Shown here: positions 11,974-15,327 of the stretch, piece after piece
Numbering within the stretch: position 1 is the first letter of the stretch
Layout of the letters: every line of letters begins with the position of its first letter
Source: Campylobacteraceae bacterium
GTDB lineage: Bacteria; Campylobacterota; Campylobacteria; Campylobacterales; BB28
Reading direction: 5' to 3'
Assembly: GCA_016744535.1 (NCBI GenBank)
Contig: JADGEE010000009.1
Coordinates: forward strand, 1 to 49,987
Length of the DNA stretch: 49,987 nucleotides
Position numbers and translations under genes: made by a program
The notes under the pieces: model-generated
Database searches by the model: none
What the model was told of the DNA's origin: nothing
What the model saw: the letters and a program-made list of their open reading frames with translations, nothing else

Positions 11974-13293
11974 TTGGTTGAACTTTTAACTCCTGCTGGA
12001 AATTTTGAAAAATTAAAAATTGCAATAGAGTATGGAGCAGATGCACTCTATGGTGGTGTTAGCCACTTTTCACTAAGGACTCGTTCAGGTAAAGAGTTTA
12101 GTTATGAGAGTTTTGAAGATGCTATAAAATATGTTCACTCTCATAATAAAAAGATATATGTAACAATAAATGGATTTCCTTTTAATTCACAAATAAAGCT
12201 ATTAACTAATCATATTGAAAAAATGGCAAAAATGAATCCTGATGCTTTTATTATCTCAACTCCAGGTGTTATAAAATTAGCCAAAAAAATTGCTCCACAT
12301 ATTCCAATTCACCTATCAACTCAAGCAAATGTATTAAATTATTTGGATGCCGAGTTTTACTATGAAGCTGGAGTTAGTAGAATAATAGTAGCAAGAGAGA
12401 TGAGTTTAAGTGATGTCAAAGAGATAAAAACAAAAATTCCTAAATTAGAGTTAGAGATATTTGTACACGGAAGTATGTGTTTTGCATATAGTGGCAGATG
12501 TTTAATTAGTTCAGTTCAAAGTGGGAGAGTTCCAAATCGTGGAAGTTGTGCCAATGATTGTAGATTTGATTATGATATGTTTGTAAAAGAGCCAAAAACT
12601 GAAGAGTTAATAAAAGTTAATAATAATGAAATATATATAAAATCTCCTGATAGTGAAAGTATGTTTAGAGTTGAAGAGTATAAAGATGGCACTTACATAA
12701 TGAATGCTAAAGATTTAAATTTAATAAATTATGTTGATAAAATTTTAGAGAGTGGTGTTATAGATTCCCTTAAAATCGAAGGGCGAACAAAAAGTCCATA
12801 CTACACAGCAATTACAGCAAAAACATATAGAAGAGCAATTGATGAATTTTATGCAGGTAAATTTAATCCAAAAGTTTATGAGAATGAATTAAATACTCTA
12901 AAGAATAGAGGCTATACTGATGCGTATTTATTTAGCAGACCTTATGAAAAAAATGAGACTCAAAATTTAACTACAACGCTAAGTGAAGGAACTTATCAAG
13001 TTGAAGCGATAGTTGATGAGAGTGGAGAGAGTTTTTTATCAAAAGGTAAAGTTGAAATAAATATCTTTTATGAGTTAGTGTTACCAAAAGAAGATATAGA
13101 AATAATAGTAAATAATGAAATAGGCGAAATAAAAAAAGAAAATAATAACTTTTTTATAAAATTTAAAAAACTTGAAAATATTACAGGTAAAAGTTTTGAA
13201 ACTATACATAGTGGAAATATAAATAAAATAAAATTACCAATAAATTTACCTAAATTTAGTTTTTTTAGAAGAGAGTTAAAAAGTAATGATTAA
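11974..13293 (+). CDS. U32 peptidase family protein (TrhP/YegQ-like tRNA hydroxylation)
   Basis: A 439-residue member of peptidase family U32. The closest functional analogue is TrhP (YegQ), needed for 5-hydroxyuridine formation in tRNA with prephenate. The TIM-barrel start ELLTPAGNFEKLKIAIEYGADALYGG is characteristic. The FVHGSMCFAYSGRCLIS signature and the following RGSCANDCRFDY supply the conserved cysteines, probably an Fe-S site. The C-terminal part ends in a beta domain. The start is TTG at 11974, giving MVELLTPAGN, the usual family N-terminus, so a later start is unlikely. It overlaps the following ATPase gene by 8 bases. Proteolytic activity is historical naming only. Confidence 0.82.
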   Translation: MVELLTPAGNFEKLKIAIEYGADALYGGVSHFSLRTRSGKEFSYESFEDAIKYVHSHNKKIYVTINGFPFNSQIKLLTNHIEKMAKMNPDAFIISTPGVIKLAKKIAPHIPIHLSTQANVLNYLDAEFYYEAGVSRIIVAREMSLSDVKEIKTKIPKLELEIFVHGSMCFAYSGRCLISSVQSGRVPNRGSCANDCRFDYDMFVKEPKTEELIKVNNNEIYIKSPDSESMFRVEEYKDGTYIMNAKDLNLINYVDKILESGVIDSLKIEGRTKSPYYTAITAKTYRRAIDEFYAGKFNPKVYENELNTLKNRGYTDAYLFSRPYEKNETQNLTTTLSEGTYQVEAIVDESGESFLSKGKVEINIFYELVLPKEDIEIIVNNEIGEIKKENNNFFIKFKKLENITGKSFETIHSGNINKIKLPINLPKFSFFRRELKSND

Positions 13294-14176
13294 GAGTATT
13301 AAGATTTCAAATTATAAAAATTTAGATGGATTTGAATTTGATGGATTTGGAAGACTTAACTTAATTACTGGAAAAAATAATGTTGGGAAAACTAATCTTT
13401 TGGAGGCGATGTATTTAGGTTTAGATAAAATGAATGCGTTACGAAATATTTATATTGAAAGGAATAGTGATACTACTAAACTTACAAATTCATTTACGAA
13501 TTTAGATTTAAAAAAAAATAGTTTAATTACTATAAATAATAAAACTTTTGACTTAAAAGCTGGTATATTAGAATTTACAAAAACAAATGTTATAACAATA
13601 TTAGAAACAAATTTAATATATATTTCATCAAATCAAAAATTAGATGGAGAAATTTTAGCTGAATATTTTTCAGAAATTATTAAAAAAAATAAAAAAAATG
13701 ATTTAATTAAGTGTTTAAAAGTTATAGATAATGAAATAGAAGATATTCAAATTTTAGTTGATAATAAAAAAGCTAATATATATTTAATTCAAAATAACTT
13801 AGTTTTACCAATATCATTTTTTGGTGATGCAATAAAATCAATATTTAATATATTTAGTAGAATACTTGCAAGTGAAAATAAAACTATTTTAATTGATGAA
13901 ATAGAAAATGGAATTCATTATGAAAATCAAAAGGAGTTTTGGTCAAAACTTTTAGAAATTTCAAAAATTACAAATTGTCAAATTATAGCTACAACTCACT
14001 CAATAGAGATGATAAAATACTTTTATGAAGTTACAAAAGATGAAGAGAATTGTAAACTTCTTACTTTAATTAAAGATAGAAAAAATCGTATGAAATTTCA
14101 AGAGAAAGAGAAAGGTTTTATAGAATATCAACTTGCACATATTAAAAATATTGAAGAAACAAGTGTTTTAAGATGA
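13286..14176 (+). CDS. AAA ATPase (RecF/OLD-like), partner of the TOPRIM-like gene
   Basis: A 296-residue ATPase of the RecF/OLD/AAA_15 group. It starts with MIKSIKISNYKNLDGF and has Walker A GKNNVGKT (29-36), Walker B ILIDEIENG (D204, E205) and the H-loop TTHS (H238). It is short: the coiled-coil or helical arm between the two lobes is reduced to about 150 residues with no zinc hook. It overlaps the upstream gene by 8 bases and the downstream TOPRIM-like gene by 4, so the pair is translationally coupled. ATPase plus separate TOPRIM nuclease is the architecture of split OLD systems such as PARIS (AriA/AriB), but both proteins are smaller here. A housekeeping DNA or RNA role is the alternative. 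Confidence 0.78.
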   Translation: MIKSIKISNYKNLDGFEFDGFGRLNLITGKNNVGKTNLLEAMYLGLDKMNALRNIYIERNSDTTKLTNSFTNLDLKKNSLITINNKTFDLKAGILEFTKTNVITILETNLIYISSNQKLDGEILAEYFSEIIKKNKKNDLIKCLKVIDNEIEDIQILVDNKKANIYLIQNNLVLPISFFGDAIKSIFNIFSRILASENKTILIDEIENGIHYENQKEFWSKLLEISKITNCQIIATTHSIEMIKYFYEVTKDEENCKLLTLIKDRKNRMKFQEKEKGFIEYQLAHIKNIEETSVLR

Positions 14177-14823
14177 AAACAAACTTTATATTAGTTGAGG
14201 GAAGTGATGATTTATCAATTTATCGTTTTATTATAAAAAAAATATTTAATATGGACTTTGAGTTACAGAATATATGTAGTGATATAAATTGTGAATTTAA
14301 ATCTAGTGGTGGGTTTCATAATTTTAAATATAAACTAAAAGAGCTATTAGAGAAATATGAAAAAAATTTAATAGATATAAATAGAATTGGTATAATAGGT
14401 GATTTAGATAATAAGAGTAAAAGTGAACGACAAAAAGAGTTAGAGAAAATATTTAGTGATGTTTTTAAAGAGTATAAAGATGAGATAAAACTTTTTACTT
14501 TTATTTGTGAAGATTTTAAAGAGATAGAATTTTTGCTTAAAGAGAGTAAAACTTTAGATTCTAAAGTAGCAGAGTGTTTTTATGATAATTTTAAAGATTC
14601 TTGTAAAAATTTAGATATTAATGATTATCAAATTGAAAAATTAGCTATTAAATATTGGGTGGATGTTTATTTAAACTCTTATTGTTGTAAAGAGATAGAC
14701 CCTAAAGAGAAAAATTGTTCTATATCAAGGGCTTTTAACAAAAAAGATATTGACAAATGTTTTGATATTAAACATAATAAGTTTTTAGATAATTTCCAAA
14801 ATTTTTTAAATAATTTTAATTAA
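14173..14823 (+). CDS. TOPRIM-like protein (DUF3226/DUF4435-like)
   Basis: A 216-residue protein with TOPRIM landmarks: a first strand ending in an acidic residue (FILVEGSDD, Glu9) and IGIIGDLDN with the DxD pair Asp77/Asp79. This resembles DUF3226 or DUF4435 proteins, which include nuclease partners of OLD-type ATPases. The C-terminal half is helical and unusually rich in cysteine (nine in total, including SYCCKEIDPKEKNC), suggesting a metal site. The start overlaps the ATPase stop (ATGA), so the products are made together and probably form a complex. purE follows after 9 bases. Nuclease activity is inferred from the fold; the cellular target is unknown. Confidence 0.68.
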   Translation: MKTNFILVEGSDDLSIYRFIIKKIFNMDFELQNICSDINCEFKSSGGFHNFKYKLKELLEKYEKNLIDINRIGIIGDLDNKSKSERQKELEKIFSDVFKEYKDEIKLFTFICEDFKEIEFLLKESKTLDSKVAECFYDNFKDSCKNLDINDYQIEKLAIKYWVDVYLNSYCCKEIDPKEKNCSISRAFNKKDIDKCFDIKHNKFLDNFQNFLNNFN

Positions 14824-14832
14824 GGAGAGAAA

Positions 14833-15327
14833 ATGAGTTTTGTTTCAATTTTAATGGGTAGTAAAAGTGATTATGAAGTTATGAAGAAGTGTGGTGATAC
14901 ACTAAAGAGTTTTGGTGTTAAATATGAGTTGATTATTAGTTCAGCCCACAGAACACCTGCTAGAACAAAAGATTATGTAATTGATGCTGAAAAAAGAGGC
15001 TCAAAAGTATTTATTTGTGCTGCTGGAATGGCTGCACACTTAGCTGGTGCAGTATCTGCAATGACAACTAAACCTGTTATTGGAGTTCCATTAAAAGGTG
15101 GGGCTATGGATGGAATGGATGCAATGCTTGCCACTGTTCAAATGCCAAAAGGGATGCCTGTTGGAACTGTTGCACTTGGAAATGCAGGGGCTATAAATAG
15201 TGCATATCTTGCAATGCAAATTTTAGCACTAAGCGATAGTGAATTAGCTGTTAAACTTAGTGAAGATAGAGTTATGCAAGCAAAAAAGGTTGAGAGTGAT
15301 TCAAAAGAGATAGAGGTAAGAATTTAA
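14833..15327 (+). CDS. purE: N5-carboxyaminoimidazole ribonucleotide mutase
   Basis: Class I PurE converts N5-CAIR to CAIR in purine synthesis. The 164-residue protein carries the expected SILMGSKSDYEVM start (the SDxxxM substrate loop), SAHRTPAR with the catalytic histidine, AGMAAHLAG, GVPLKGGAMDGMDAML and GNAGAINSAYLA. Length and motifs are typical. A good AGGAG site lies before the ATG. No purK is adjacent. It is followed by the DUF3972-like gene 10 bases downstream. Confidence 0.97.
   Translation: MSFVSILMGSKSDYEVMKKCGDTLKSFGVKYELIISSAHRTPARTKDYVIDAEKRGSKVFICAAGMAAHLAGAVSAMTTKPVIGVPLKGGAMDGMDAMLATVQMPKGMPVGTVALGNAGAINSAYLAMQILALSDSELAVKLSEDRVMQAKKVESDSKEIEVRI

Follow-up and report, generated by a model that had tools for sequence, protein, structure and literature searches.

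In the PARIS system, a phage trigger frees the TOPRIM tRNase AriB from the ATPase AriA, which otherwise keeps AriB sequestered (PMC12409363). An association of an ABC ATPase with a TOPRIM protein is also cited for AbiL, the AbiLi/AbiLii abortive infection system of Lactococcus (PMC12409363). A homologue of AbiLii is toxic in E. coli, and AbiLi of this AbiL homologue failed to neutralise AbiLii (PMC3985639). PADLOC further contains PDC-M38, a two-gene candidate defence system, and HEC-01, an 'Hma-embedded' candidate. The HECs were found via their embedding in defence operons ('guilt by embedding', as cited in PMC12988326), and this use of embedding to find candidates is already known. In OLD and in GajA of Gabija, ATPase and TOPRIM are fused in single proteins, and Gabija also comprises the helicase GajB. 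Many defence genes have been found via defence islands, and a widespread ATPase-TOPRIM family residing within core operons would be missed in this way. Papers naming DUF3226 or PDC-M38, and phage or toxicity data for the gene pair described below, were not found in a literature search that covered neither preprints nor subscription journals.

The window analyzed here, a stretch of 49,987 nucleotides of contig JADGEE010000009.1 from a Campylobacteraceae bacterium, contains a compact ATPase-TOPRIM gene pair located between a U32 peptidase-family gene and purE. The features of this locus are as follows:

11974..13293, plus strand: upstream host gene, U32 peptidase family, TrhP-like (NCBIfam TrhP, 1e-104, below cut-off)
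13286..14176, plus strand: open reading frame with ATG start, 296 aa, compact ABC/OLD-type (OLD/Rad50-type) ATPase, AbiLi/PDC-M38A-like, presumed sensor/regulator subunit
13370..13393, plus strand: Walker A of the ATPase, GKNNVGKT, residues 29-36 (sequence and conservation)
13886..13912, plus strand: Walker B of the ATPase and next loop, ILIDEIENG, residues 201-209 (sequence and conservation)
13997..13999, plus strand: H-loop His238 of the ATPase (invariant)
14173..14176, plus strand: ATGA stop/start overlap of the ATPase and TOPRIM genes, 4 bp (sequence)
14173..14823, plus strand: open reading frame with ATG start, 216 aa, TOPRIM-type protein, divergent DUF3226, presumed nuclease effector
14197..14199, plus strand: TOPRIM Glu9 (invariant in 39 homologues)
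14401..14409, plus strand: TOPRIM Asp77-x-Asp79 (both Asp invariant in 39 homologues)
14575..14718, plus strand: C-terminal Cys4-Lys-Trp-Tyr region of the TOPRIM partner, C135, C144, K160, W162, Y166, C172 and C182 (conservation)
14833..15327, plus strand: downstream host gene purE (TIGR01162, 7e-55, above cut-off)

The four genes are co-directional, with successive spacings of -8, -4 and +9 bp. The end of the U32 open reading frame contains the ATG of the ATPase gene, and purE starts 9 bp 3' of the pair, behind a GGAG; the ATPase and TOPRIM genes appear to be coupled by their stop/start overlap. In the ATPase, residues G29, N31, N32, G34 and K35 of Walker A are invariant among 30 homologues and T36 is nearly so, while I203, D204, E205, N208, G209 and H238 are invariant in the same set. 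In the partner, E9, D77, D79, C135, C144, K160, W162 and Y166 are 100% conserved in 39 homologues, and C172 and C182 are 85% conserved. The presence of conserved cysteines together with the invariant K160, W162 and Y166 makes a putative metal site in this region plausible. The first-pass annotation of this DNA had described the two overlapping frames and their sizes, the overlap with the U32 gene and the 9-base distance to purE, the Walker A, Walker B and H-loop motifs, the TOPRIM Glu and Asp residues, and nine cysteines in the partner; its coordinates are exact and each of these features is present. The two genes also occur together in other genomes, which indicates that the pair is not a chance arrangement. 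With 512 residues in total, it offers a small testable system for the control of TOPRIM nucleases by ABC ATPases.

Among Pfam profiles the ATPase matches AAA_15 (1.4e-17) and AAA_21 (1e-16), and among PADLOC models AbiLi (4e-49, the best), PDC-M38A (1.7e-41) and AriA (6e-20). The same PADLOC models lead for all 30 ATPase homologues, every one of which matches PDC-M38A. The TOPRIM partner alone reaches 20.1 bits with DUF3226 (PF11536), under the Pfam gathering cut-off of 27, whereas all 39 of its homologues match this profile at E<=0.01 (best 5e-28). Similarly, PDC-M38B is matched by the partner alone at only 1.3e-4 and by 38 of the 39 homologues (best 4e-14). These profiles suggest placing the pair, as a compact and divergent representative, in an AbiLi/PDC-M38-like group of ATPase-DUF3226 systems, which is a candidate type of defence. 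It shares the two-gene layout of PDC-M38, and differs in its weakly matching TOPRIM protein, compact ATPase and location in a housekeeping operon. Unlike the ATPase with its leading AbiLi match, the partner has no AbiLii model among its matches (E<=1 for the protein of the window, E<=0.01 for the 39 homologues), and PADLOC may hold none. Weak matches of the pair to HEC-01A (3e-11) and HEC-01B (3e-3) were also found; HECs, however, were detected by their embedding in defence operons, and the present pair is embedded in core metabolism. The N-terminal part of the ATPase resembles the Old and GajA profiles, but the pair differs from Gabija: ATPase and TOPRIM are here encoded by two genes and the neighbours of the pair are the U32 gene and purE, with no helicase.

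The AlphaFold2 model of the ATPase (pLDDT 87) has its best Foldseek matches in the retron I-A ATPase, Rad50 and PtuA (E from 1e-12 to 1e-10), and the heads of SMC proteins are, like that of Rad50, among the best fold matches. A sequence-profile search of solved structures returned Rad50, PtuA, OLD and RecF. The model of the partner (pLDDT 92) has the order strand-helix-strand-helix-strand(DxD)-helix-strand, as expected of TOPRIM, with E9 just past strand 1 and D77-x-D79 just past the strand of residues 69-76. Foldseek comparison of this model with the PDB gave nothing at E<1e-3, the DUF3226 structure 2p62 being at rank 10 (0.019), and fold comparison with viral structures gave no significant match.

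The distribution of the pair is patchy. While purE is present in 59 of 60 relatives, the TOPRIM partner was found in 5 of the 60, relatives of the ATPase at E<=1e-22 in 12 of 399 genomes of the order, and DUF3226 as a whole in 16 of 200 genomes. A pair of the window type occupies the U32-purE junction in 3 of the 399 genomes: the genome of the window itself, its genus-mate G001 (64% identity) and G034 of another family (45%). In 11 pair-less genomes of eight families the U32 gene and purE adjoin directly, with a gap of up to about 41 bp. Such empty junctions are present in G049 (gap of 2 bp) and G017 (0 bp), genus-mates of G034, which has the 1.6-kb pair at this position. The rarity at the site and the empty junctions in genus-mates of a carrier identify the pair as accessory rather than housekeeping. 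The earlier survey proposal had asked about relatives without the pair, and these are the great majority; a pair at this locus in nearly all relatives, named earlier as what would refute the idea, is not what the genomes show. The earlier view of a module captured by a housekeeping operon, outside a defence island, is largely borne out by the patchiness and the empty sites, and the distribution does not favour the other option then raised, a little-known housekeeping pair.

In a tree of U32+PurE the carriers fall in two separate places, forming one group in 0% of bootstraps, and G034 is nested among its empty-site genus-mates. The three carrier ATPases, in contrast, form one clade with support of 100, a discordance that fits lateral spread. 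Lateral arrival at the same U32-purE junction is the simplest reading, simpler than an old presence of the pair with many losses. In searches of plasmid and phage collections, the window ATPase had no relative over its full length; 13 viral contigs carry distant ATPases. A phylum-wide search gave no further close relatives.

Other genes also occur at this junction. In G001, small open reading frames flank the pair (L193:2380-2775 and L193:4329-4523), encoding a 131-aa protein with a signal-like start and a 64-aa lipoprotein-like protein, which suggests that the junction collects genes. In other families, unrelated genes of about 1.3 kb lie between the U32 gene and purE (L032, L033, L036 and L035, in genomes G026, G008, G056 and G025, respectively); their products include a 418-aa protein and a response-regulator/GGDEF-like protein. 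The presence of such genes indicates a permissive junction.

The pair, with invariant catalytic-type residues, recurs in Campylobacterota, Gammaproteobacteria, Bacteroidota and Cyanobacteria. The wider family was studied in 79 loci from other bacteria and in further genomes. A close co-directional partner lies beside 97 of 113 ATPases. Neighbours named by NCBIfam include hisH, hisA, sufB/sufC, nqrD/nqrE, thiL, murC, mqnE and cydB, as well as rsmG, mutS, fdhD, aconitase (acn), folC and asparagine synthase; thiL here comes after a gene that is nusB-like by eye. Defence genes flanking the pairs are rare: of the 99 genes that lie immediately beside pairs, close and co-directional, not more than two matched any one defence model (threshold 1e-15). 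Both neighbours were close and co-directional for 33 of 87 pairs and for 25 of 66 size-matched operon gene pairs, as counted with a crude ORF caller. The idea that the pairs are more deeply embedded than expected by chance was rejected on these figures; what is notable is that a family both accessory and defence-like equals core genes in its embedding.

The hisH-hisA site was labelled for 18 copies in 15 Campylobacterota loci. In 27 of 30 relatives inspected, hisH lies directly upstream of hisA. Well-supported branches of the ATPase tree force at least seven changes of the site label, and this site has thus been filled or refilled repeatedly. The his-type ATPases of Campylobacterota have an amino acid identity of 0.78-0.83 in residues 1-44 versus about 0.2 (about 22%) in residues 45-180. 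Recent gene conversion was considered as the cause of the near-constant N terminus and rejected: at conserved residues the codons show hardly any increase in identity, and constraint therefore explains it at least as well. This contrast between head and middle would be in line with an unchanging motor joined to a sensing part that varies.

Taken together, we regard the pair as probably a laterally acquired immune-type cassette of two genes, an ATPase and a DUF3226-type TOPRIM protein, that rides on the host operon. Such a cassette would have inserted exactly at the junction of the U32 gene and purE, without an operon of its own, and the stop/start overlaps would allow its transcription and translation together with the host operon. 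The compact ABC ATPase could dimerize or oligomerize and hold its TOPRIM partner in an inactive state. It would sense an infection cue, probably via its variable middle part, and sensing would release or activate the TOPRIM subunit, which could then cut nucleic acid (tRNA or DNA) using Mg2+ bound by E9, D77 and D79. Phage multiplication would be stopped, probably by growth halt of the infected cell. Control of a TOPRIM nuclease by the ATPase is proposed by analogy with PARIS and with AbiL, whose second gene may be toxic. Gene structure, family, conserved catalytic-type residues, patchy presence, empty sites and core-operon embedding are observed, while complex formation, nuclease activity, trigger, substrate and anti-phage action are inferred, and in function the pair may at most resemble PARIS.

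The immune reading is supported by the best profiles being those of known or candidate defence models (AbiLi, PDC-M38A/B), by the predicted fold neighbours retron I-A ATPase, PtuA and Rad50, by the recurrence with invariant residues, the patchiness, the discordance of the host and ATPase trees and the empty junctions, and by a layout of ABC ATPase and separate TOPRIM protein that could correspond to that of PARIS and to the association cited for AbiL. Counting against it are the neighbours, which belong to core metabolism and are not defence genes, the few matches in plasmids and phages, and the TOPRIM model, which has no PDB match below 1e-3.

The pair could also be a selfish or addiction-type element, either a TOPRIM toxin that the ATPase keeps in check or a homing-like cassette, acting mainly for its own persistence in essential operons, so that any phage defence would be secondary; we consider this unlikely. 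It would be in keeping with recurrence at core-operon junctions, with the forced label changes at hisH-hisA, with the tandem arrays of G011 and with the toxicity of the AbiLii homologue (PMC3985639). An unsystematic look, however, turned up neither an integrase nor a terminal repeat nor a homing-endonuclease signature, and AbiLi of the AbiL homologue did not neutralise AbiLii (PMC3985639). Patchy distribution fits a selfish element and defence alike and does not separate them.

An accessory role in DNA repair or chromosome maintenance, with a Rad50/RecF-like ATPase and a TOPRIM nuclease and outside defence, would agree with the Rad50 and SMC heads among the fold matches, but such a pair would hardly be so patchy and so seldom fixed, with signs of lateral spread, or have defence models as its best profiles; this explanation is very unlikely. 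About as improbable is a housekeeping pair tied functionally to its operon neighbours, in tRNA U34 hydroxylation or purine synthesis. The tight co-directional arrangement and the control-like frequency of embedding would be expected of it, yet the site is empty even in genus-mates of a carrier and relatives reside in such unrelated operons as his, suf, nqr, cyd and mur; this role was rejected on the distribution and the empty sites. That the pair is a true PARIS (AriA/AriB, class 4 OLD) system is most improbable and its filing there was rejected on the profile scores, for in spite of the shared two-gene layout, a probable sensor/effector split and the AriA match, AbiLi and PDC-M38A score better by tens of orders of magnitude, the AriB profile of PADLOC gave no match for the DUF3226-type partner and only three of its 39 relatives (best about 1e-3), and solved AriA chains have 464 residues as compared with 296 and 216 aa here; of the earlier proposal of a split OLD/PARIS-like module, the split compact pair remains and the membership is lost.

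Returning to the immune cassette, a broader proposal is made more tentatively and may well be wrong: 'operon-riding' immune cassettes could form a class, in which a family settles repeatedly at stop/start junctions of core operons (U32/purE, hisH/hisA, sufB/sufC, nqrD/nqrE, thiL, murC and others) rather than in defence islands. An essential operon may give steady expression and protection from loss, variants would turn over at fixed sites, and the variable middle part of the ATPase would be the sensor. If true, immune modules would have a genomic lifestyle of another kind. The repeated embedding in housekeeping operons with empty sites seems new in the literature searched, preprints and subscription journals lying outside it.

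Several loci contain more than one pair. The genome of the window has a second, diverged ATPase-TOPRIM pair in a glycan operon (L195:4408-6079, contig C149, the same as L015:804-2475), located between an asparagine-synthase-type gene and a glycan gene, with overlaps of 4 bp between the ATPase gene and the upstream gene and 23 bp between the TOPRIM and ATPase genes. G011 carries tandem arrays (L093, L119 and L181) of at least three ATPase-TOPRIM pairs, arranged head to tail with short overlaps, in which differing types of TOPRIM partner lie next to similar ATPases. At L066:3041-8277 the order is hisH-pair-hisA-pair, with separate pairs on either side of hisA in one his operon, and in G080 (L186:3104-5420 and beyond) two consecutive pairs with 4-bp overlaps lie upstream of hisA. 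In several species of Microcoleus-type cyanobacteria, a pair is located between phosphoketolase and phosphatase-like genes (L060, L106, L124 and others).
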